The notes under the pieces: model-generated
Told to the model about the DNA's origin: nothing
Database searches by the model: none
Seen by the model: the letters and a program-made list of their open reading frames with translations, nothing else
Part shown: positions 2,433-12,965 of the stretch, one piece after another
Layout of the letters: each line of letters starts with the position of its first letter
Position numbering within the stretch: the first letter of the stretch is position 1
Program-made: the position numbers and the translations under genes
Assembly (NCBI GenBank): GCA_017859335.1
Contig: JAFMNH010000009.1
Span: forward strand, 1 to 41,138
Length of the DNA stretch: 41,138 bases
Source: Rhodothermales bacterium
Lineage (GTDB): Bacteria > Bacteroidota > Rhodothermia > Rhodothermales > UBA10348
Direction: 5' to 3'

Positions 2433-3083
2433 CTATGCATCATAATGGATCATGTAGAAATCCCCACGAGCCTCACGGTACTGGTCGAGCACACCGGCCC
2501 TGGTCAACGTGACCAGTAGCCGGCCTGCCCTATCCCGATCGAGATCAGCTATCTGCGCGAACCCATCGACCGTGACCCGACCGTATTGCTCCAGATAGCG
2601 CATGAGAAGCAATTCCTTCTCGCCAAACTCGAAACGCACCCCTTCACCGGAGTTTTCGCTTCGCATCAATGCCACGGACTCGGGCGAAGCCTCTACACTC
2701 ATGTCATCGATCCGGACATAGGCCGGACCCGTACCGTCTTCGACATTCGTAACAAGGTAGTGCGGTTTTCTCGGGCTGTCTGGAACCGTCACGAGAATGA
2801 CCTCCCGCTTTGGTGTTATGGCAATACGCTCGGATACCCACTGGATGGCGGGTCGACAGTTCAACCCCAGTGCCTGCCTTAGCGAGTACTCCTCTTCCTC
2901 CGAATCCCGAACGCCGACAAGGGTACCGTCGTCCCCGACACCAATGAGCAGGTGCCCACCTCCCGAATTAGCAAAAGCCACCACCTCTTTGGCCAAGCGT
3001 TCGGGTTCCGGTACGCGGCGCTTGAACTCCAGATGTCGCCCTTCCCCACGGGCAACCAGACGCTTGATCTCTTCTACTGTCAT
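2433..3083 (-). CDS. AlbA_2/Schlafen-type putative DNA-binding protein with C-terminal winged helix
   Basis: This 216-residue protein has an N-terminal AlbA_2 (Schlafen AlbA-like) domain: the family hallmark ExK in HLEFKRR (18-23), then VAFANSGGGHLLIGVGDDG (35-53) and a YVRI/S-type strand near residue 125. The C-terminal 70 residues (about 150-216) look like a winged-helix module: a helix starting FGEKELLLMRYLEQYG, then a helix-turn-helix around DLDRDRAGRLLVTLTRAGVLDQ. Family members are often annotated as ATP-binding or transcriptional regulators, but the biochemical role is poorly defined and I do not assign one. It starts 15 bases after the gpsA stop, so it is probably co-transcribed with gpsA and leads on to the topoisomerase gene. 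ATG start; no strong Shine-Dalgarno. Confidence 0.8.
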   Translation of the reverse strand: MTVEEIKRLVARGEGRHLEFKRRVPEPERLAKEVVAFANSGGGHLLIGVGDDGTLVGVRDSEEEEYSLRQALGLNCRPAIQWVSERIAITPKREVILVTVPDSPRKPHYLVTNVEDGTGPAYVRIDDMSVEASPESVALMRSENSGEGVRFEFGEKELLLMRYLEQYGRVTVDGFAQIADLDRDRAGRLLVTLTRAGVLDQYREARGDFYMIHYDA

Positions 3084-3098
3084 GCTGTGTCCCCCTCG

Positions 3099-4133
3099 TC
3101 ACGAACCGGTTTCGGACACGATCCATTCCTCTTGTTTTGCGCTGCGCATCATAAGGTACCGGACGGCTTCAGCTGGCGGGATGCCTTCGAAAAGGATGCT
3201 GTGCACGGCAGCAATAATCGGCATCTCGACATCCAGACGATCGGCCAGTTCCATGACGGACGCGGTCGTACGAACACCCTCTGCGACCATGGTCATTTCC
3301 CCCTGCGCGGCATCCAGTGATTTTCCCTGTCCGATCGCATATCCCAGGTTTCGATTTCTGCTCAGGGAACTCATACAGGTCACAACAAGGTCTCCAATTC
3401 CTGCCAGGCCGCCAAAGGTACCTTCCCTGGCCCCCATGGCTACGCCGAGACGCTTGATTTCGCAGAGGCCCCTCGTCAGGATAGCGGCCTTCGCATTGTC
3501 GCCGAAACCAACGCCGTCAGAAATACCGGCAGCTATTGCAAGAACATTCTTGACGGATCCCGCTATCTCTACGCCCCGGAGGTCGGTATTGGCATACACC
3601 CGGAGTGTCGGCGTCATGAAAATCTCCTGCAACCTTTCCGCTGTCGTGAGCACGCTCGAGGCCGCAACTACAGTTGTGGGACAGTGCTTGGCTACTTCTT
3701 CAGCGTGGCTTGGGCCGTAGAGCACCGCTATCTGGTGGGGCCGGGCGTCCGTGAAAACATCCTGTAGCACTTCGGAGGTCGTCATCAACGTGCCATTCTC
3801 GATGCCCTTTGCAACAGATACAAGCAGTACCTCCGCTCGAAAGGCATCCCTGAGCTGGCTGGCCACTTGTCTCACGCCTTGGGATGGCACCGCGAAGAGC
3901 CAGATATCGGCGCCTTCAACGCTCTCGTGCAGATCGTGCGTGATACGGACGTGAACGGGAATGAGGGCTTCCGGCAGATAAGCAGGGTTGTGCCGCGTCG
4001 TGCGCATCTGCTCGGCCGCTGCTTCCTTGCGGGTCCACAGGCTTACTTGGTGCCCGGTTTGAGCGAGGCTGATGGCCAGTGCCGTACCCCAGCTTCCTGC
4101 CCCAATCACCGCTACGTGTTCCTTTCTGCTCAT
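3099..4133 (-). CDS. gpsA: NAD(P)+-dependent glycerol-3-phosphate dehydrogenase
   Basis: GpsA reduces dihydroxyacetone phosphate to sn-glycerol 3-phosphate in the cytoplasm, giving the backbone for phospholipids. The protein has 344 residues, normal for the family. The Rossmann dinucleotide loop is VIGAGSWGTALA (9-20). Other family signatures are SVAKGIENGTLMTTSEVL (106-123), LYGPSHAEEVA (138-148), the catalytic lysine in AGSVKNVLAIAAG (Lys195) and the glycine-rich GGLAGIGDLVVTC (241-253). The plsY gene, whose product uses glycerol 3-phosphate, is next upstream on the same strand, 152 bases away. A small hairpin (4160-4177) lies just before the ATG. The AlbA_2 gene follows after 15 bases. Confidence 0.96.
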   Translation of the reverse strand: MSRKEHVAVIGAGSWGTALAISLAQTGHQVSLWTRKEAAAEQMRTTRHNPAYLPEALIPVHVRITHDLHESVEGADIWLFAVPSQGVRQVASQLRDAFRAEVLLVSVAKGIENGTLMTTSEVLQDVFTDARPHQIAVLYGPSHAEEVAKHCPTTVVAASSVLTTAERLQEIFMTPTLRVYANTDLRGVEIAGSVKNVLAIAAGISDGVGFGDNAKAAILTRGLCEIKRLGVAMGAREGTFGGLAGIGDLVVTCMSSLSRNRNLGYAIGQGKSLDAAQGEMTMVAEGVRTTASVMELADRLDVEMPIIAAVHSILFEGIPPAEAVRYLMMRSAKQEEWIVSETGS

Positions 4134-4159
4134 GTTCTCTCAGTATTCTGCTGAGTGCG

Positions 4160-4177
4160 CTGTCTGACGTAAGACAG
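4160..4177. repeat. Short perfect inverted repeat between plsY and gpsA
   Basis: CTGTCT (4160-4165) and AGACAG (4172-4177) form a 6-bp stem with a six-base loop, 26 bases before the gpsA start. There is no T-tract on either strand, so it is not an obvious terminator. It could be an operator half-site pair or a leader hairpin in the gpsA mRNA. The function is unknown, and a 6-bp repeat can arise by chance. Confidence 0.35.
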
Positions 4178-4285
4178 GCCTGATGCACCGGTAGCGGCCC
4201 TGATGTCTGAGTCCGACGGGAAGCCGCCTTCAGCCACAACGACGGCAGTAATCACAAAACGCGAACCTCGCACCACTCCTCTACT

Positions 4286-4969
4286 TCAGATCTCGCCCCT
4301 GCCGCGCATCCCTTGGGCAGCGCGAAAGGTTGTTATACGGTTCTCTGTTCCTGCAATAAGGCGTTTAATGTTGGACCGGTGCGCCAGGAATATACCAGTG
4401 GCCAGTACCAAACTGAAAACAAAGACTGAGGCATCAAGACCCTCGGCATGCATCCAATACTTCTTCACAGCGATAGTACTCGGATAGACTACCGTTGCCG
4501 TGAGCGAAGCAAGTGACACGTATCGGGACGCGAAGAGGACAACTGCAAAGACACCCAACGTCAGAAGCATCACCCCCGGCGTCAATGCGAGCAGGACACC
4601 AGCCGTAGTGTTGACCCCCTTTCCACCCTTGAAACCGGCCCAAACAGGGTACATGTGGCCGATGACAGCGGCCATACCCGCCATCAAACGAACTACGGAT
4701 TCCACCTCCCAGAAACCGAATCCTGCCGGAAGTGCGTCGACACGGATGGTGGCAATCAGGCCCGCTGCCAGGACACCTTTACCGAGATCAACCAGGGAGA
4801 CGACAGTACCTGCTTTCCAGCCAAGGACGCGAAACGCATTGGTGGCACCAGCATTGCCGCTGCCGTGGGCCCTCAGGTCAATACCGTGAGCCGCTTTACC
4901 GATCCAAACACTCGTGGGAATGGATCCGACGGCGTAGCTCAGAAGAAGGATGATAGCCACCGATAGCAT
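4286..4969 (-). CDS. plsY: Acyl-phosphate:glycerol-3-phosphate acyltransferase
   Basis: PlsY is an inner-membrane enzyme that moves an acyl group from acyl-phosphate to glycerol 3-phosphate, the first committed step of phospholipid synthesis. The conserved motifs are present: GSIPTSVWIGK near the N-terminus, RAHGSGNAGATNAFRVLGW, and GHMYPVWAGFKGGKGVNTTAG. The rest is mostly hydrophobic and fits five transmembrane segments. I chose the start MLSVAIILLLSYAVGS, which begins directly with the first membrane segment and gives 227 residues. An in-frame ATG at 5047 would add 26 hydrophilic residues unlike the family. The C-terminus (TENRITTFRAAQGMRGRGEI) is polar and cytoplasmic. It lies between purM (95 bases upstream) and gpsA on the same strand, so substrate supply and use are encoded side by side. 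Confidence 0.94.
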   Translation of the reverse strand: MLSVAIILLLSYAVGSIPTSVWIGKAAHGIDLRAHGSGNAGATNAFRVLGWKAGTVVSLVDLGKGVLAAGLIATIRVDALPAGFGFWEVESVVRLMAGMAAVIGHMYPVWAGFKGGKGVNTTAGVLLALTPGVMLLTLGVFAVVLFASRYVSLASLTATVVYPSTIAVKKYWMHAEGLDASVFVFSLVLATGIFLAHRSNIKRLIAGTENRITTFRAAQGMRGRGEI

Positions 4970-5064
4970 AGCTGATACCTGCTTTTCTGTTTGGAAGCCG
5001 GAAGATACGGTATCCGGATGGGATGGGATCCGATCAGCACCACTCACCAGGTACTGTCGCAGGA

Positions 5065-6060
5065 TCAGACAGCTTTCACCGATCCAATTACAAACGGGGC
5101 TTCATCCGTGAAGGATGAAAGGACGGTTTCCACCTCACCGGGCGGCACGATGGCAATCAAACCGACACCTAGGTTGAATGCCGAGCGCATGTCCTCCTCG
5201 GGCACATTACCGAGATCCTGGATCAAACGAAAAATGGCTGGACGTTCCCATGAATCGTAATCGACATCGATGGTGAGCCCTTCGGGCATCACCCGTTTCG
5301 TATTTCCGGGTATACCCCCGCCCGTCACGTGAACCAGAGCCCGCACGTCGGTAATGGAACACAGCTGATCGATGATATCCAAATAGGACTTGTGGACGGC
5401 CAATAGCTGCTCTCCAACGGTCTGCCCTCCCAAAACTGGAGGACGGTCGTGTACATCATGATGTTTGAGCAATACATGACGCGCCAGGCTGTACCCATTG
5501 GTATGCAATCCTGTAGAGGAAAAGGCAACCAGTACGTCACCTGACTCGACACGGCTTCCGTCAATGATATTCTTCCGATCAACGACTCCCACAATGGTAC
5601 CTGCCAGATCGTATTCACCCTTCGCGTAGATATCCGGCATTTCAGCCGTCTCTCCTCCAATAAGGGCGCATCCATTTTCCTGACACGCTGTCGCAAACCC
5701 CTTGATGACCTCGAAACCAGCGTCTTGATTCAGGGACCCGGTCGAGAAGTAGTCAAGGAAGAACAGCGGCTTGGCACCACAGACGGCAATATCGTTTACG
5801 CAGTGGTTTACGAGGTCCTGGCCCACAGTATCATGTCGATCCATCATGAAGGCCACTTTCAACTTTGTGCCCACACCATCAACCGAGGAGACGAGCACAG
5901 GGTCTTCATAGGCCCTCCAATCTACCTTGAAAAAGGCGCCGAAAGCTCCAATATCCGTCATCACACCATCGGTGAAGGTTTTCCTGACCAATGGCTTGAT
6001 GCGATCGACCATCTCCTCTCCAGCCTTAACATCAACCCCGGCTTCCTTGTATGTAGTCAT
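5065..6060 (-). CDS. purM: Phosphoribosylformylglycinamidine cyclo-ligase (AIR synthetase)
   Basis: PurM closes the imidazole ring in purine synthesis: FGAM plus ATP gives 5-aminoimidazole ribonucleotide. The 331 residues are slightly shorter than the E. coli enzyme. Diagnostic segments are the N-terminal TYKEAGVDVKAGEEMVDRIK, the dimer-interface/ATP region DGVGTKLKVAF, GGETAEMPDIYAKGEYDLAG and the C-terminal VHVTGGGIPGNTKRVMPEG. It is the first gene of the run purM-plsY-gpsA. A 318-base non-coding stretch lies upstream and contains a Bacteroidota-like promoter candidate (6224-6252). The link with lipid genes is one of position, not pathway. Confidence 0.96.
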   Translation of the reverse strand: MTTYKEAGVDVKAGEEMVDRIKPLVRKTFTDGVMTDIGAFGAFFKVDWRAYEDPVLVSSVDGVGTKLKVAFMMDRHDTVGQDLVNHCVNDIAVCGAKPLFFLDYFSTGSLNQDAGFEVIKGFATACQENGCALIGGETAEMPDIYAKGEYDLAGTIVGVVDRKNIIDGSRVESGDVLVAFSSTGLHTNGYSLARHVLLKHHDVHDRPPVLGGQTVGEQLLAVHKSYLDIIDQLCSITDVRALVHVTGGGIPGNTKRVMPEGLTIDVDYDSWERPAIFRLIQDLGNVPEEDMRSAFNLGVGLIAIVPPGEVETVLSSFTDEAPFVIGSVKAV

Positions 6061-6378
6061 GTCCCCCTATTTGCGTTGGATGAATCGACAATGGTGCCGG
6101 TAAAGATAGGAACACCGACCCGTGTTAGATGGACATCTTCACCTGTCCCGGAGGCCATATTGGGATTCCCGCAGTATACCCTGAGGAAGAGCATGCTGAC
6201 GAAGGTACCTCGACCCTGGACTACTAAATTAGGACAATCCTGTCATGCGCAATAACGAATAGAGGTGAAAACGCTACCGGTTCACCATCCACTACAGCGC
6301 ATGGGGCCGGGAAAGGCATCATCCACGTGGAAGGTTCTGTTGTCCTATTGCGGGAGAAATACAGCACCATCATCTGGT
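6061..6378. other. Non-coding region upstream of purM
   Basis: These 318 bases between the LuxE-like gene stop and the purM start hold no convincing gene on either strand. On the minus strand I see one promoter candidate (6224-6252). I see no T-tract hairpin terminating the upstream gene and no recognisable purine riboswitch. The pieces GACA and TGTC at 6233-6236 and 6241-6244 form a small inverted repeat inside the candidate promoter spacer. Confidence 0.5.
6224..6252 (-). promoter_or_regulatory. Candidate Bacteroidota-type promoter for purM
   Basis: Read on the minus strand, TTG (6252-6250) is followed after 18 bases by TAATTTAG (6231-6224), which matches the Bacteroidota -7 consensus TAnnTTTG except for one base. 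Transcription would start about 160 bases before purM. The match is by eye and such short patterns also occur by chance. Confidence 0.35.
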
Positions 6379-7380
6379 TCATTCCAGCAGAAAATTGCAT
6401 CCTCGCAATTCCGCCTCGGCCATGCGTCCAAGCACCCTGAATCCGCCATTTTCCGAAACCGCTCGGTCCTGCGTGAGCACCGCACTGACCGTATGCACAT
6501 TGGCAAGGTCCATGAATGCAAGAATCCCTTCTTGGCCCTCATCGCATAGACGCGTGGGATCTGTAGGGTCCACCACGTAATGCCTCATCCACGGGGGCGT
6601 CCTGTAAATGGTATCGGCGTCCGTGTAGCACTGGGATAGTAATTCGCACATGCCGTACTCGGATACAACGCGCTTGCGAGGTACTCCGAAACCCGAGGAC
6701 AACCTATGATGCAGGGCCTCTCGTGAGATTTCTCGCCGGTGCGTTTTCATGCCCCCCGTTTCAATGACGACACTGCCCGTCGGAAGCATCCAATCACGGA
6801 CATCTAGCAGGTCCAGGAGGCCAAAAGCCGCACCGAAGAGCACCACAGGACCCGATGCATCGCTCCTCGTTATTGCATCAAGGCATGACGTGTCTTCCAA
6901 GAAGAGCTGCGAACCGGATGCACCTCGCTTCTCTATCAGGATGGACACCATGGCCACCAGCGAACTTTCCTGCGCATAAGCCGGCAGATGACCCAAAATG
7001 GTTACATCGCCGGGTTGCCAATCAAACCGTTGAGCAATGGCCCGGTCAAAGCCAGCCAATACGCTGCGCTCATACAGACGTGAGTCGGCTATGTAATGAC
7101 GGCTTCGCTGTTGGCTGCCCGTACCCGAACTGACAAAGACGCGCTCCGCTCGATCTGCCGGAAAACTCGTAACCGTCGCCAACTTGAAGGCTTCTACCGG
7201 CAGGAAACGGTATCTCTCGAAACGGCCATAAACCGGACAGTGGGTGCGCTGATAGGCCTCCACACGGTCGGCGACCTCTGAAAACGAGACATCGCCAGCA
7301 TCCACCGACCCGATGAGATCCCACACGAGATCCTCAATCGGCAAGGCAGTATCTGCGTTGTTACTTACCTCAATAGTCAT
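6379..7380 (-). CDS. LuxE-like acyl-protein synthetase family protein
   Basis: This 333-residue protein resembles the LuxE/acyl-protein synthetase family (adenylating enzymes related to PaaK that activate a carboxyl group with ATP). Matching segments are the nucleotide-binding loop VFVSSGTGSQQRSRHY (81-96), a central IETGGMKTHRREISRE (206-221) and SEYGMCELLSQCY (240-252), all of which correspond to LuxE blocks. I chose the ATG at 7380, which overlaps the M14 peptidase stop by 11 bases (ATG...TGA), so translation is probably coupled; an upstream ATG at 7470 would read through the peptidase gene. No luxC (reductase), luxD or luciferase gene is near, so this is not a bioluminescence operon. The true acyl substrate and acceptor are unknown. 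The downstream neighbour, purM, is separated by 318 bases. Confidence 0.82.
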   Translation of the reverse strand: MTIEVSNNADTALPIEDLVWDLIGSVDAGDVSFSEVADRVEAYQRTHCPVYGRFERYRFLPVEAFKLATVTSFPADRAERVFVSSGTGSQQRSRHYIADSRLYERSVLAGFDRAIAQRFDWQPGDVTILGHLPAYAQESSLVAMVSILIEKRGASGSQLFLEDTSCLDAITRSDASGPVVLFGAAFGLLDLLDVRDWMLPTGSVVIETGGMKTHRREISREALHHRLSSGFGVPRKRVVSEYGMCELLSQCYTDADTIYRTPPWMRHYVVDPTDPTRLCDEGQEGILAFMDLANVHTVSAVLTQDRAVSENGGFRVLGRMAEAELRGCNFLLE

Positions 7381-9046
7381 TATCAGGAGCAGGCTTCTCA
7401 GGAATGGGTACAGGCTGCTGAGGCAAGCGGTGGATGGGGTATTCACCTCCGGTAACCATCCAGTCCTCAAGTAGGGCCCAGTTCACCAAGCCGTCATCCG
7501 AACGGGGTTCCAGCAAATAAAAAATCAACCGGGCCTTGTTGTTTCGGGTCGGTACGAGGAGACTGCCCTCTGCGGGGACCACTTCGCGTTGGACCCATTC
7601 CCCCCATACTGTGCGTTCCTGGACACCCTGAAAAGCCCGCTCAGCTGTGGATGTTGAGTCGACTCGAAAGGTCTCGACAAGCTGCGAGACACCGGGTCCC
7701 ATTCGGGAGAACCTGATTCCGTGGCGCTGCAGCAGGTCAGACACCGTCTCCGACGCCTCTGGAGCTATGACATAAGCGAATGGAATCGTGGAAGACTCCA
7801 CGGTTTGAAAAGCCCCATACTCTGGCATGTACTGAATATGGGTAGAATCGGTGCGGGCGAAATACATGGCACCACTGTAGGGATTCCGACGCTCCTCCAC
7901 CGCACCCATGAGAATGGGCGACGCATCGGCATTTCGCTTGGGCTCAAAGCGAAGACCCTGCTCGAGTCCCGCCATGCTCCGACCCTCGGCTTGGCTGATG
8001 ATGGACCGGATGGCCTCACCATTTTGAACGGCATAGTCCACGATGGATTCGACGAAATACAGGCTGGACAGAATCCGCTGCTCGAACGAGGCATACGCGT
8101 AGGCTTCACTCAGAATAGCCACACGATTTCTCAGGCCGACATAGTTGTTGTTGAAACGAGGGCGATGGTCGAAGGTGTACCACCCGGGCTCTCCCCGACG
8201 GAAAGGAAGGTTTCCGTACCAGTAGGCATCCCAGCCGGAACGTTCGCGAAAGGTCGAGCGGACTGCAGGAAGCATCTCCTTGCGCAACAAAGAGTCGATT
8301 GCAGTGTCCGTGTTCGGATTCAGCGGTGACGAATAGGTCAAATGGTACCCATGACGCGTCCCGTTCGTTGTATGCAGATCGACGACCACATGGGGATCGT
8401 ATGCATTCATGAGCGCGAGAAGCGACTGCGCCTCAGGGCTCCTCGCTTTCATGTGGTCCCGATTCAGGTCAAGACCTTGGGCATTGGGGCGCTGTCCCAT
8501 GCCTCCATATGGCCCATTCTGCCGAGGTCGATTGTACAGGTTCACGCGCTCGTTTCCGTCCGCATTATAGAGGGGCGCTAACAGGAGCACGACGGAATCA
8601 GCCCATGCTGCATGATTGCCTGATGCCAGGGACCGGATGAGCATCAACAGGGCCTCTTTGCCGCTTACTTCGCCTGCGTGGATATTTGCCTGAACGAAGA
8701 GGCGTAGCTTGTTTGTCCTCAGAACGCTCTCCGCCGATGCGTCCGCGACATCTCCGAAGACAACCAGCGGGAGACGACGCCCTTCGACCGAGTAGCCGAA
8801 GTGTGTGACGTGGAGACTCGGATGTTGGGCAGCCGCCACGTCGATGAAGGCCATCACCTCGTCGTATCGGGTAGTCTCATCGAACGAAGTGCGTTCGGCA
8901 CCCGTTAGCAGAAACGACAGGTCCGGGGTTTGTGCCCAGACCCGGCTTGCGAACACGATGCAGAGAAACATCGTCATCAAGCTGATGACCCGAGCGGTCG
9001 AAGCGAGCACGGGGCGTGGTCCCATCGGTAGGTGAGGATACTGCAA
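7370..9046 (-). CDS. Secreted M14-family zinc carboxypeptidase
   Basis: This is a 558-residue exported metallocarboxypeptidase. An N-terminal signal peptide (hydrophobic core about 18-35, cleavage likely after RVWA-QT) precedes the M14 fold. Zinc ligands are visible as His123 and Glu126 in NIHAGEVSGKE and His225 in VVDLHTTNG. A substrate-binding arginine sits in GLDLNRDHMK (Arg196), and the general base is probably Glu314 in AILSEAYAY. The C-terminal 200 residues (about 350-558) form an additional domain without a recognised motif. The architecture is like the M14 peptidases common in Bacteroidota that act on peptides or peptidoglycan-like substrates outside the cytoplasm; the specific substrate cannot be read. 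A second in-frame ATG at 9025 would still leave a usable signal peptide. The gene overlaps the LuxE-like gene downstream by 11 bases. Confidence 0.92.
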   Translation of the reverse strand: MQYPHLPMGPRPVLASTARVISLMTMFLCIVFASRVWAQTPDLSFLLTGAERTSFDETTRYDEVMAFIDVAAAQHPSLHVTHFGYSVEGRRLPLVVFGDVADASAESVLRTNKLRLFVQANIHAGEVSGKEALLMLIRSLASGNHAAWADSVVLLLAPLYNADGNERVNLYNRPRQNGPYGGMGQRPNAQGLDLNRDHMKARSPEAQSLLALMNAYDPHVVVDLHTTNGTRHGYHLTYSSPLNPNTDTAIDSLLRKEMLPAVRSTFRERSGWDAYWYGNLPFRRGEPGWYTFDHRPRFNNNYVGLRNRVAILSEAYAYASFEQRILSSLYFVESIVDYAVQNGEAIRSIISQAEGRSMAGLEQGLRFEPKRNADASPILMGAVEERRNPYSGAMYFARTDSTHIQYMPEYGAFQTVESSTIPFAYVIAPEASETVSDLLQRHGIRFSRMGPGVSQLVETFRVDSTSTAERAFQGVQERTVWGEWVQREVVPAEGSLLVPTRNNKARLIFYLLEPRSDDGLVNWALLEDWMVTGGEYPIHRLPQQPVPIPEKPAPDNDY

Positions 9047-9060
9047 GATTCATCTGTACG

Positions 9061-9082
9061 GGTAGAATCTAGGGGCTCTACC
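9061..9082. repeat. Inverted repeat upstream of the M14 peptidase gene
   Basis: GGTAGA (9061-9066) and TCTACC (9077-9082) are perfect reverse complements separated by ten bases, 15 bases upstream of the peptidase start. It could be an operator for the divergent genes at 9046 (minus) and 9335 (plus). No factor can be named. Confidence 0.3.
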
Positions 9083-9276
9083 TACAAAAAGCCGGTACGT
9101 ACGAAGTGTTTTCCGGATTCATGCACCCCGTACGTGCCAGATCAGAATTCATTGCCTTTCAGCATCGATCAGCGGTCTCTGTTGTATAATTCGGCGTTGC
9201 GCCCCGCCTTGCATGCAGAACGCTGGCGACTCGTGACCAACGTGGTTGCAAGCCTTCATGAGTCCCCGTTCAGCAG

Positions 9277-9301
9277 GACGGTGTGTAACGCGACGGTGTG
9301 T
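9277..9301. repeat. Pair of 10-bp direct repeats before the YjbQ-like gene
   Basis: GACGGTGTGT occurs at 9277-9286 and again at 9292-9301, a 15-base period, 33 to 58 bases before the start codon at 9335. The second copy also pairs with CACAC at 9306-9310. The position, just upstream of the gene or in its leader, suggests a regulatory site or a leader structure; no function is known. Confidence 0.4.
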
Positions 9302-9334
9302 CCAGCACACAGACCGTATGCACCAAGCGACAAT

Positions 9335-10402
9335 ATGGCAACACAACCTACTGACATCCGCCTTACGCTGAAGCCAGAGTCCAGGCTCGAGCTGATTGAC
9401 GTATCTGAGCGAGTAGAAGCCGAGAGCGGTGATTTCTTCGACGTGTACCGCAAAAGCGCGTATGCCTCGCACCACACGACGGCTGGTTTCTTTGAGCAAA
9501 GTTTCGCCCGGCGCCTGAAGCACGACCCTGAAGCACTCGAAAAGTACGTAGGCTCGTTCAAGAAGCTCTTTCCGCCGAACGCAGACTATCGACATGATCA
9601 GATGGAGTTGCGCGACGAACTGAGCGATGCCCAAAAACTGGTAGAGCCAAGAAATGCCGACTCCCACCTGACCTACATCGGTGCTGGCCTGGAAAACTGT
9701 GTCACCTATCTGAATGAACGGCGGGCGCCAGTTTTTTTCATCGATCTGGACGGTACGAACGGCGACACGCGTCGCACCCGCAAGACAACTGTTGTGGGAT
9801 TCAACAGTGAGACCGTCGTTCAGGAGCAGGTGCTGCGCATTCCAATGGGCTCCCACCCTATCGGGTCGGTAAACCTGTGGGACCCCAAGGTAGGCGTGCT
9901 ACAGCAAATCGAAGAGCACATTGCAACGCTTGGGATCGAGAAGGGCCGCGTCAGTTTATCGTTATCCCCGGACGAGAAGAACACAGGGCTGACGGTCAAT
10001 GAGTACGAAACGCTTCTCATGCGCCACGATCTACCCGATGTACTCAAGAACCCCCTGCGTTTTATGGCCATGCGCGGCGTGAATATGCTGCGCGACCCCG
10101 GTGCCATCAAGGAAAAGGCCAAGGATTATATGAAGTACGACCTGGTTCACGTGGTCAATGAGTTCATTGAAGCCACGGGCCTGAGCGATACGAAGGTGGA
10201 ACGCATCATCGACAAGTTCTTCCAGGTCCCTGCCAACCGTTTCCTGCGCATGAAACGAAAGGTGGACCTGATTGTCTCTGATGAGGGCACAGGCAACGGC
10301 CGGATCATCAATGGGACCTACCAAAGCCCGATTCTCGTGCAGTGGAATCGCAATCAGGATCGAACACGAACGGTGAACGTGGTTTTCAGCCGTTTCGAAT
10401 AG
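9335..10402 (+). CDS. Uncharacterised protein with YjbQ/UPF0047-like N-terminal domain
   Basis: I do not recognise the full protein (355 residues). The N-terminal 155 residues resemble the YjbQ/UPF0047 family: SHHTTAGFFEQSF (45-57) matches the family HTT block, YRHDQMELRDE (85-95) lies where YjbQ has its Y-x-H segment, NADSHLTYIGAG (107-118) matches the NAHAHL block and FFIDLDGTNGD (134-144) matches the FVDFDGPR block. Normal YjbQ proteins stop at about 140 residues. Here about 200 more follow, with helices near 185-300 and the basic segment RFLRMKRKVDL (302-312), and no motif I know. The start MATQPTDIRL was chosen because upstream in-frame sequence is low in coding character. No signal peptide or membrane segment is visible, so it is probably cytoplasmic. 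The gene is alone on the plus strand, with a repeat-bearing upstream region. YjbQ proteins have been linked to a weak thiamine-phosphate synthase activity; I do not infer that here. Confidence 0.68.
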   Translation: MATQPTDIRLTLKPESRLELIDVSERVEAESGDFFDVYRKSAYASHHTTAGFFEQSFARRLKHDPEALEKYVGSFKKLFPPNADYRHDQMELRDELSDAQKLVEPRNADSHLTYIGAGLENCVTYLNERRAPVFFIDLDGTNGDTRRTRKTTVVGFNSETVVQEQVLRIPMGSHPIGSVNLWDPKVGVLQQIEEHIATLGIEKGRVSLSLSPDEKNTGLTVNEYETLLMRHDLPDVLKNPLRFMAMRGVNMLRDPGAIKEKAKDYMKYDLVHVVNEFIEATGLSDTKVERIIDKFFQVPANRFLRMKRKVDLIVSDEGTGNGRIINGTYQSPILVQWNRNQDRTRTVNVVFSRFE

Positions 10403-10444
10403 GTAGGGTCTTCCCTCCAGGCTGCCGCGCCGCGGATCACGGCC

Positions 10445-11221
10445 TTAGATCAAGGAGTGGGACTGTACACCATCGACGGTAATACAGGCACCTGAAACCC
10501 ATGATGCACGTGGCGAGGACAAGAAGGTTACGACATCAGCCACCTCCTCAGCCGAACCGAAACGGCCCAGAGGAATGTTGTCCGCGATGAATTGCTTCAT
10601 TCCCTCGGGATCTTCTTTGCATCGCCGATCCCACGATCCGCCTTCAAAGCGGATGGACCCTGGAGCTACGGAATTGACGCGAACCCCGTACTTGCCAAGC
10701 TCGATGGCCATGATCTTGGCCGCACTGATGAGGGCTGATTTTGTCGTATTGTAGATGGACAACCCCGCGCCACCAGCTTCACGTCCGAAGATGGATGATA
10801 TGAAGATGATGGAGCCACTTTCCGAATCTTTCAGTGATGGAATGACGGCCCGAGCCGTTCTAAGATGGGACTTGAGGTTCAATTCCAGGATATCCTCCCA
10901 GTCCTGATCGGTAGTTTCCTCGAACTGTCCCCGCCGGTTACCTCCAGCGTTTGCGACGAGGATATCTATGCCTCCGTAAAGGTCTTGCGCCCGGGCAGCC
11001 AACGTCTGCCCCGCATCCGGATGTGTCACATCGAGGGCCAGGCCATGTACATCGGTACCGTACACCTTCAAAGCATCAACTGCCGCATCAAGACTCTCCT
11101 GCCCCCGAGCGCAAACCAACAGGCGGCATCCTTCTTTGGCCAACCCATGAGCTATCGCCAGACCGATCCCCCGACTGGCACCGCTGACGATGGCTACTTT
11201 TCCTTCAATTCCAAGATCCAT
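10445..11221 (-). CDS. Short-chain dehydrogenase/reductase (SDR) family oxidoreductase
   Basis: This is a classical 258-residue SDR. The cofactor loop is SGASRGIG (13-20), with the NAG motif at 91-93 and Asn115 in ELNLKSH. The catalytic Ser142/143 (FISSIFG), Tyr157 and Lys161 (YNTTK) are all present. The C-terminus, VSGACITVDGVQSHSL, is the usual end of FabG-like SDRs. The substrate cannot be told from sequence; 3-oxoacyl-ACP reductase-like or sugar/alcohol dehydrogenase roles are both possible. It converges with the YjbQ-like gene (42 bases between stops) and is divergent from the plus-strand group starting at 11386, separated by 164 bases. Confidence 0.93.
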   Translation of the reverse strand: MDLGIEGKVAIVSGASRGIGLAIAHGLAKEGCRLLVCARGQESLDAAVDALKVYGTDVHGLALDVTHPDAGQTLAARAQDLYGGIDILVANAGGNRRGQFEETTDQDWEDILELNLKSHLRTARAVIPSLKDSESGSIIFISSIFGREAGGAGLSIYNTTKSALISAAKIMAIELGKYGVRVNSVAPGSIRFEGGSWDRRCKEDPEGMKQFIADNIPLGRFGSAEEVADVVTFLSSPRASWVSGACITVDGVQSHSLI

Positions 11222-11385
11222 GGTGCTAAAACAACGTGTTGGTAATTGGCGCTTAAGTTACGGGCGCATGATAGCGATCTTTCGACGAGGGAATGCGTAC
11301 CTCGACAGGAATTGACAGGAACTCCGAGAGGACGCTGTCACGCGAAGAACCCTACCCGTTCGGTATCAGCATAGATCGTAACCCC

Positions 11386-11904
11386 ATGACCACACTGGAA
11401 GCCTTCAATGATCTACCGGATTCCACGGATTGCTGGCTGTACGCAGCAAGCCGGGAGTTGAATGAGGCAGAGATCTCGTTTCTGAATAGTCTGTTCACGG
11501 CTTTCGAAAAGGACTGGTCTACGCATGGAAGATCCGTCAGCGGCGCATTTGCCGTTGCCGGAAACAGGATAGTGATTGTCGCCGCCCATGTCGAAGCAGG
11601 CGATATCAGCGGGTGCGGCATCGACAAGTCACTTCATTTCTTGCAGGAGGCGGCTGCTTCCCGCGGATTCGAGTGGTCCTCCGCCCTGAACATCGTCCAC
11701 GAAGACTCCGACGGTGCCCTCCAGGTGGTTTCCAGAGGGGACTTCAAGAAAATGGCGAAGGAAGGGGTTGTAACACCGAGTACGCGCGTCGTCGACCTGT
11801 CCATCCGCTCCCTGGGTGAACTCCGCAATCCCGGCCTGCTGAGGCGGGCTTCCGATTCATGGCACGTCAGTCTTTTACCTGATCCGTTGCTACCGGTCTC
11901 TTAA
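11386..11904 (+). CDS. Conserved hypothetical protein of a Bacteroidota family
   Basis: This 172-residue protein matches a small conserved family common in Bacteroidota. Family-like stretches are CWLYAASRELNEAEISFL (18-35), a central W-x3-G segment DWSTHGRSVSGAFAVAG and GCGIDKSLHFLQEAA. Members often carry the label 'ABC transporter ATPase' in databases, but no Walker A, signature or Walker B motif is present, so that label is not supported. No signal peptide or membrane helix is visible. I chose the start MTTLEAFNDL; an ATG at 11293 would add 31 residues unlike the family. The potassium-channel gene follows after 20 bases on the same strand, so the two are probably co-transcribed. The function is unknown. 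Confidence 0.75.
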   Translation: MTTLEAFNDLPDSTDCWLYAASRELNEAEISFLNSLFTAFEKDWSTHGRSVSGAFAVAGNRIVIVAAHVEAGDISGCGIDKSLHFLQEAAASRGFEWSSALNIVHEDSDGALQVVSRGDFKKMAKEGVVTPSTRVVDLSIRSLGELRNPGLLRRASDSWHVSLLPDPLLPVS

Positions 11905-11924
11905 CGCCTCGAGGTACCTGAACG

Positions 11925-12965
11925 ATGTCCTACGATCGTGGCAACGGGGTCAGCTTCTTTCTGAGCCGAGAACTGATTGTTGCCAATGCTTTTCTGGCCA
12001 TGGTTTTGGTCGCGGGGACGGTTGGTTATACCGTCATCGAGGGATGGTCCCTGATGGACAGTCTCTACATGACATTCATTACCCTGACAACGATTGGTTT
12101 CAGGGAAGTGCATGACATGTCCGCCGGCGGCCGGATGTTCACGATCATCATCGGCTTGATGGGTATAGGAAGTGTAGCATTCATTGCTACCCGAACGGCT
12201 CAGGTGCTCTTGAATACCCACACCTTTCGATACAGGAAAATGATGCGCTCCATCGATGCGACGTCCGAACACTACATACTGGCTGGCTTTGGCCGAATTG
12301 GACAGCGAATTGCCAAGGACCTTGCCCGCAACGAGGTGCCTTTCGTCGTCATTGAGAAGGATAACACACCGCTGGAAACCCTTGAGCGTTCGGGCTACCT
12401 GCATCTCCAGGGGGACGCGGAAACCGAGGATATTCTGCAGGCCGCTGGCATCAAACGCGCTCGGGGTCTGATCCTCACACTTCCCGAGGATCGGGCGAAT
12501 GTGTTTGCAACACTTGTTGCGCGGGAGCTGAATCCGGACCTCTTCATCCTGGTTCGGACCGACACCCATGCCAACCGGCGTAAACTCATCCGTGCCGGTG
12601 CAGACAAAGTCGTAGCGCCCTACGAAATCGGAGCCGATCGCATGGCTCAGGTTCTGCTTCGGCCAACGGTAGAGCACTTCATGGAACGTATCATGCGTTC
12701 TGATGCCTTGGCCTACTCGATGGATGAGGTCATCGTGGAGCAGGGTTCCAAGCTGGCGGGAAAAACACTGCAGGCAGCCAACTTCAGATCCCGTTTCGAT
12801 GCCATTGTTGTGGCCGTCATGAATGGTACAACGAACCAGTTGACCTTCAACCCCGGTCCTGATACTTCGTTACGAGGAGGGGATACACTGATTGTGATGG
12901 GTAGCTCCGAGATGATTGCAACCCTTCGATCTGAGGGATGCCGCGCGGGCAGTGGGAAATCCTGA
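11925..12965 (+). CDS. Two-helix potassium channel with RCK/TrkA cytoplasmic domain
   Basis: This 346-residue membrane protein has an ion-channel pore followed by a ligand-gating RCK ring domain. Helix 1 is about residues 18-38, the pore loop about 44-60 and helix 2 about 71-92. The RCK/TrkA-N Rossmann domain begins near 115, with the nucleotide loop AGFGRIGQRIAKDL (120-133) and VVIEKDN; a TrkA-C domain occupies about 250-340. The selectivity filter region reads TLTTIGFREVHD (53-64) instead of the canonical TVGYGD: the second filter glycine is replaced by arginine. It probably conducts K+ or another cation across the inner membrane under control of a cytoplasmic ligand, but selectivity cannot be assumed from this filter. 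The gene is 20 bases after the conserved hypothetical gene, and the L,D-transpeptidase gene follows. Confidence 0.9.
   Translation: MSYDRGNGVSFFLSRELIVANAFLAMVLVAGTVGYTVIEGWSLMDSLYMTFITLTTIGFREVHDMSAGGRMFTIIIGLMGIGSVAFIATRTAQVLLNTHTFRYRKMMRSIDATSEHYILAGFGRIGQRIAKDLARNEVPFVVIEKDNTPLETLERSGYLHLQGDAETEDILQAAGIKRARGLILTLPEDRANVFATLVARELNPDLFILVRTDTHANRRKLIRAGADKVVAPYEIGADRMAQVLLRPTVEHFMERIMRSDALAYSMDEVIVEQGSKLAGKTLQAANFRSRFDAIVVAVMNGTTNQLTFNPGPDTSLRGGDTLIVMGSSEMIATLRSEGCRAGSGKS

Follow-up and report, generated by a model that had tools for sequence, protein, structure and literature searches.

A LuxE-like protein and a probable LuxC partner encoded at separate sites in a Rhodothermales bacterium

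The LuxE-like gene and the fold of its product

The stretch analysed here (the window) comprises 41,138 nucleotides, positions 1 to 41,138 of contig JAFMNH010000009.1, from the Rhodothermales bacterium assembly GCA_017859335.1. On its minus strand lies a gene for a LuxE-like protein, directly preceded by a gene for a zinc peptidase of the M14 family, and it is the role of the LuxE-like protein that is considered here. The features in question are the following:

6379..7380, minus strand: LuxE-like gene, predicted adenylating / acyl-transfer protein; ATG at 7380, TGA at 6379-6381, 333 residues
6397..6399, minus strand: codon of Cys328 in the RGCN motif, the presumed acyl acceptor; aligns with Cys360 of pOX38 luxE
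7370..9046, minus strand: M14 zinc peptidase of the secreted type (PF00246); 558 residues, likely start at the internal ATG 9025
7370..7380, minus strand: overlap of the M14 stop with the LuxE-like ATG; 11 bases, ATGACTATTGA

The open reading frame (ORF) of the LuxE-like protein could also begin further upstream, at a TTG (7470), the preferred start being the ATG at 7380. The translated protein passes the gathering score of Pfam LuxE (PF04443; 33.9 bits, cut-off 24.9), and at E values up to 1 LuxE was its only Pfam match, with no PaaK C-terminal domain. In its family (family A1, 48 sequences) PF04443 was matched by 41 members at E 0.01, and the sole other Pfam match was a weak one in a single member. 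A search of the window's own genome with PF04443 returned nothing at E 0.001, yet hmmscan of the translated protein exceeds the cut-off, as given above. Since the score against the NCBIfam equivalog for luminous LuxE (NF052244) was 27.5 bits, far short of its cut-off of 550, the window protein is taken as a distant member of LuxE and not as the luminous enzyme.

When the family profile was compared with all PDB sequences at E 0.001, a single chain was matched, the LuxE chain 7xc6_E (E 3.4e-21), over nearly its whole length. Alignment by hhalign to pOX38 luxE, which belongs to a luxCDE set (locus L162), gave 98.5%, and the AMP-binding control gave 0.5%. Identity of the window protein to true LuxE is about 19%. 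The LuxE tree was made from LuxE-type groups, without PaaK sequences, and the Pfam, hhalign and PDB-profile controls take the place of a PaaK outgroup.

The AlphaFold2 model of the protein (pLDDT 89.4) is predicted to adopt an ANL-type N-domain like that of the PaaK phenylacetate-CoA ligases (Z 23.9 to 2y27, 278 residues aligned). Since the alignment is confined to residues 8-330 of the 425 of PaaK1, the ANL C-terminal domain is predicted to be absent. The PaaK ligases thus share the N-domain fold, but the window protein has a C-terminal cysteine tail in place of their C-terminal domain and no sequence-level match to them at E 0.001. The cysteine in question, Cys328, stands in the RGCN motif of the protein's last residues and is a cysteine in all 56 aligned sequences, true LuxE included. 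In known LuxE the C-terminal cysteine accepts the acyl group, and both the acyl-AMP and the cysteine steps are described for known LuxE and LuxC (PMC8301110). The original prediction had called the protein a LuxE-like, carboxyl-activating enzyme; that it is LuxE-like, with a fold of the carboxyl-activating kind, is borne out by the profile match to 7xc6_E and by the kept C-terminal cysteine.

LuxC as the probable partner

It had also been predicted that no luxC, luxD or luciferase gene lies near the LuxE-like gene. This holds for the 10 neighbouring ORFs covered by the Pfam scan (2433-12677), luxD and luciferase not having been searched for genome-wide, but the genome does encode LuxC, on another contig:

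G000:C135:8015-9085: LuxC of the window genome; 356 residues, LuxC score 337.5 bits, catalytic Cys215

The reason for looking upon this protein as a partner is found in the related loci. LuxC, so named by Pfam, is encoded directly downstream of LuxE in 52 of 80 loci from genome contigs, and the same adjacency occurs in annotated loci of Azospirillum, Pantoea, Lactiplantibacillus, Priestia, Chloroflexota and Deinococcus. Members of the window's family have luxC apart from luxE, at a separate chromosomal locus with the order thiolase-crcB-luxC-adk; on C135 the thiolase and CrcB genes stand ahead of luxC, and in relatives a holin-like gene and the adenylate kinase gene come after it. The C135 protein exceeds the cut-off of Pfam PF05893 (32.5 bits, cut-off 21). 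Its Cys215 matches Cys288 of true LuxC, a position that is cysteine in 41 of 41 rows, and hhalign to true LuxC gave 86%. The C135 protein is 38-49% identical to LuxC proteins encoded in operons of other Rhodothermales, compared with 18-27% for LuxC of the Balneolales type, and it groups with the former (93/95) in a tree that, like the LuxE tree, contains very long branches (true LuxE, true LuxC, Chloroflexota, Deinococcus) and is rooted at its midpoint. On sequence comparison the C135 protein is therefore the ortholog of the LuxC that is operon-borne in other Rhodothermales.

The two proteins also occur together. Among 60 relatives, 37 encode LuxE and 40 a strong LuxC (260 bits or more, a line drawn after a gap in the score list had been seen); both were found in 36, LuxE alone in 1, LuxC alone in 4 and neither in 19.

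We propose that the LuxE-like protein and the C135 LuxC probably act as a split ATP- and NAD(P)H-dependent carboxylate reductase, made up of two proteins and working without luciferase. The LuxE-like protein would bind ATP and a carboxylic acid, form the acyl-AMP, and load the acyl group onto Cys328, which sits on the protein's own flexible tail. LuxC would then accept the acyl group as a thioester, presumably at Cys215, and yield the aldehyde by reduction with NAD(P)H, which would involve complex formation between the two proteins in this organism. The acid may be small or fatty. With luxE and luxC forming an operon in most relatives and lying at separate sites in the window's family, the partner would act in trans, and the M14 gene would have been left beside luxE from an older gene order.

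Compared with the luminous system (7xc6; the luxCDE set of pOX38), the window's proteins are alike in their homology over nearly the full length of LuxE, in both cysteines and in the pairing of the genes in most relatives. They are unlike it in the low LuxE identity, in the size of LuxC (356 compared with 480 residues) and its location at another locus, and in that neither luxD nor luciferase accompanies the window luxE within the 10 ORFs scanned.

Several observations weigh against the proposed reductase. The match of the window protein to PF04443 is weak (34 bits), 7 of the 48 family members were without a match at E 0.01, and both Foldseek and VIA place PaaK chains first, with 7xc6 not among the rows listed. 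PF05893 was likewise missed by 6 of 34 LuxC members, and the LuxC profile matched no chain in PDB. The co-occurrence of LuxE and LuxC is confounded and inflated by shared ancestry. Weaker LuxC matches were found in 14 relatives that lack LuxE, and LuxC-like proteins are therefore possible without LuxE. In the wider phylum, where the family profile found LuxE in 172 of 394 sampled genomes, LuxE is mostly solitary; the 20 loci inspected stand among varied genes, and LuxC adjoins in only one of them, from the window's own class.

These solitary genes, together with the PaaK-like fold, would suit a LuxE that works independently of LuxC, a ligase acting alone to attach acyl groups to some other protein or, in the manner of PaaK, to form acyl-AMP or acyl-CoA; its role would lie in fatty-acid metabolism, alongside an enoyl-CoA hydratase (ECH). 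The deletion of a luxE homologue of the Flavobacteriales, AS87_03730 of Riemerella anatipestifer, which reportedly altered the expression of other genes and virulence (PMC4772473), may be counted on the same side, as may the ECH gene that follows luxE in 17 of the 18 family members whose downstream sequence is in view. The single exception is the window itself (L001):

6061..6378, minus strand: gap between the LuxE-like gene and purM, without the ECH gene usual in the family

No same-strand trace of an ECH remnant was found in this gap, the best local match being on the opposite strand (E 0.015), and the two ECH matches elsewhere in the window genome are paralogues of 32-33% identity. An obligate partnership of ECH with LuxE was therefore rejected. 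The stand-alone ligase is further opposed by the missing PaaK C-terminal domain in both the model and the Pfam result, by the invariant C-terminal cysteine, and by the LuxC that accompanies LuxE in 36 of 37 relatives, and we consider it unlikely.

LuxE outside luminescence is already known, since the Riemerella deletion study exists and since LuxE and LuxC occur in flagellin glycosylation islands (PMC4772473, PMC4875605, PMC7874193). AS87_03730 resembles the window protein in being a LuxE-family protein of a non-luminous member of the Bacteroidota, a likeness drawn from its description and not from its sequence. The flagellin islands likewise hold LuxE and LuxC outside luminescence, but in the context of a surface glycan and an acyl carrier protein (ACP), as far as described, and nothing of this is present in the window. 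A Deinococcus locus (L166) does resemble the flagellin-island set, with ACP, a short-chain dehydrogenase/reductase (SDR), an AMP-binding protein, LuxE and LuxC. New here are the separation of LuxE from a LuxC encoded in trans, and a branch of LuxE-LuxC modules under riboswitches, described further below.

The M14 peptidase and the surrounding block

The original prediction took the coupling of the LuxE-like gene to an exported carboxypeptidase as the possible mark of an undescribed pathway. The 11-base overlap that it noted is confirmed at 7370-7380. Short overlaps between bacterial genes, 11 bases included, are ordinary. In related loci, where listed, the candidate LuxE start nearest the M14 stop lies between -11 and a few tens of bases from it; the adjacency of M14 and LuxE is kept in the family and the exact overlap varies. 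The peptidase matches PF00246 with 65.6 bits (cut-off 21.6) and has a stretch like a signal peptide, judged by eye, after the internal ATG 9025. Its zinc ligands H123, E126 and H225 (HxxE...H), as well as N195/R196 and E314, are invariant in 33 of 33 relatives.

In a dedicated pathway the exported peptidase would free an acid that the cytoplasmic LuxE then activates. This would agree with the position of the M14 gene directly upstream of luxE in all 19 members of the window's family with visible upstream sequence, window included, and with its position one gene away in two loci of other families, Roseithermus (L037) and a Rhodothermales metagenome-assembled genome (L061), where a transporter gene of the SNF family (sodium:neurotransmitter symporter) stands alongside. 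The pair thus recurs in other genomes, but only within the window's family as direct neighbours, the recurrent partner elsewhere being LuxC and not M14. Among the 80 loci the M14 gene is directly upstream in 15, all of the window's synteny type (a longer gene order, shared wherever the flanks are in view), and in 63 it stands neither directly nor two genes before luxE, although 7 of these 63 have no upstream gene in view. The flanking genes are moreover conserved to a similar degree in these loci:

5065..6060, minus strand: purM, with plsY and gpsA after it; a housekeeping block whose synteny is kept in the family
9032-10402: divergent gene on the upstream side, residues 112-223 of its product matching UPF0047/YjbQ below threshold, C-terminal half unassigned; conserved (16 loci)
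10445-11221: SDR on the upstream side

Since the UPF0047-like gene, the SDR, purM, plsY and gpsA are kept about as well as the M14 gene, the adjacency of M14 and LuxE is a matter of block synteny, and no finding of this analysis ties the chemistry of M14 to LuxE. The dedicated pathway was accordingly rejected as the principal explanation, because M14 adjoins luxE directly in this family alone and the flanking genes are about equally conserved, and we hold it to be very improbable. The M14 peptidase is probably a bystander, a syntenic neighbour of LuxE. The Roseithermus locus has the order SNF transporter - M14 - redoxin - LuxE - LuxC, and it is plausible that this represents the older arrangement.

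Two further observations concern the neighbourhood. An ORF of 203 residues at 11293-11904, for which neither Pfam nor NCBIfam gave a match at E 1, is conserved beside the block in 14 loci. In 17 loci (L005, L009, L019, L021, L022, L037, L038, L040, L041, L043, L044, L046, L049, L051, L053, L054 and L061) an SNF-family gene lies upstream of luxE at a distance of three genes or fewer, and a redoxin-like gene often accompanies it, which hints that the substrate of LuxE may be imported.

Relatives under TPP riboswitches and the vitamin B1 question

When plasmids were searched with the window protein, 27 records were matched, with Azospirillum and Pantoea first at about 29-32% identity, and the Pantoea protein, used as a further query, matched 44; some of the plasmid-borne modules are labelled in their records as 'long-chain fatty acid--CoA ligase'. 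From these named plasmids a set of 12 loci was drawn (L158, L159, L160, L161, L165, L167, L168, L297-L301), which spans Azospirillum, Pantoea, Pseudomonas, Bacillaceae and Lactobacillaceae. All 12 encode LuxE, LuxC and an SDR, and in 11 of them a thiamin pyrophosphate (TPP) riboswitch lies upstream of the operon at the Rfam threshold (6/7 and 5/5 in two batches), the twelfth (L161) having a sub-threshold one (49.0 bits, threshold 54.3). No TPP riboswitch was present in four loci with other LuxE types (L163, L164, L166, L302). Several modules adjoin NMT1-like ABC or SLC23-type transporters; those examined were two solute-binding proteins of NMT1/THI5-like ABC systems and one permease of Xan_ur_permease. 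In Niallia (L165) two TPP aptamers stand in tandem. In Pseudomonas silvicola (L297:5001-7321) the LuxE and LuxC frames are in pieces, which may reflect a decaying copy or sequencing errors, and the riboswitch still scores above the Rfam threshold.

The LuxE proteins of these modules are, by sequence, the nearest named LuxE relatives found, and they share with the window the LuxE-LuxC pair and, in several cases, a transporter alongside. They differ in the riboswitch control, in an SDR of another subfamily and in a LuxC of another branch. We infer that the TPP-riboswitch branch salvages a carboxylated precursor of vitamin B1, by a route that is apparently unreported; our literature searches found no report of a link between TPP riboswitches and LuxE-LuxC or of such a salvage step. 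That distant relatives stand under vitamin B1 sensors also hints that LuxE-LuxC pairs may serve vitamin salvage.

The question then arises whether LuxE and LuxC of the window's own lineage belong functionally with these modules and would regenerate the aldehyde or alcohol by reducing a carboxylated B1 compound, be it oxidised thiamin or an acid of the pyrimidine or thiazole type. The LuxE relationship to the modules, together with their riboswitches and transporters, would fit such a role, as would the unrooted LuxE tree, in which the TPP group and the Bacteroidota group come together (93/77). ThiC makes the B1 pyrimidine and ThiE joins the two halves of the vitamin. In the window's family ThiC was found in none of 27 genomes and a ThiE-family match in 21 of them, the window's included. 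On the same side, the single TPP riboswitch of the window's family adjoins one gene family in L236, L237, L238 and L239, a TonB receptor by Pfam (L236). But in the window no Rfam match, and so no TPP riboswitch, was found. In the vicinity of luxE or luxC there was likewise none among the 60 relatives (result tables compared by eye), and none was found in 12 loci from the wider phylum or in 15 from the Balneolales. Since 11 of the 37 LuxE-bearing relatives are without a ThiE match and 5 have ThiC, LuxE does not track the B1 genotype. The LuxC of the modules groups with true LuxC and away from that of the Bacteroidota (100/98).

Two neighbours of the LuxE-like gene were considered as links to vitamin B1. 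The SDR at 10445-11221 shares no more than 28-35% identity with the SDRs of the modules and belongs to another subfamily, and it was rejected as their counterpart; no operon uniting the window luxE with LuxC and an SDR of the PRK08642 type was found, LuxC being on another contig. The UPF0047/YjbQ-like protein (9032-10402) was set aside since its matches lie below the curated cut-offs. The lineage thus lacks ThiC but has no riboswitch at luxE or luxC, so that extending the B1 role to it is speculative, and we regard this role as a weak rival with very little probability.

Concerning thiamin genes and TPP riboswitches more generally, three genomes of family f14 (G039, G049 and G058) have ThiC and LuxE-LuxC and no TPP riboswitch match, unlike most relatives. 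In two genomes of family f15 (L241:1072-1345 and L242:9026-9290) the TPP riboswitch stands immediately after the 5S rRNA gene that belongs to an rRNA operon, and the same receptor-like gene lies downstream of it.

Taken more broadly, LuxE-LuxC could be a general module for turning acids into aldehydes, with several uses other than light. The TPP branch would reduce carboxylated B1 precursors to usable alcohols, and the Bacteroidota branch, the window's included, would apply the same chemistry to another small imported acid. We put this forward tentatively, as a possibility somewhat short of even.

LuxE-like genes are widespread in non-luminous Bacteroidota, and with the identification of a LuxC partner the reaction becomes testable. 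The riboswitch link names a concrete class of substrate for one branch of the family and, if true, would add a salvage step to vitamin B1 metabolism.

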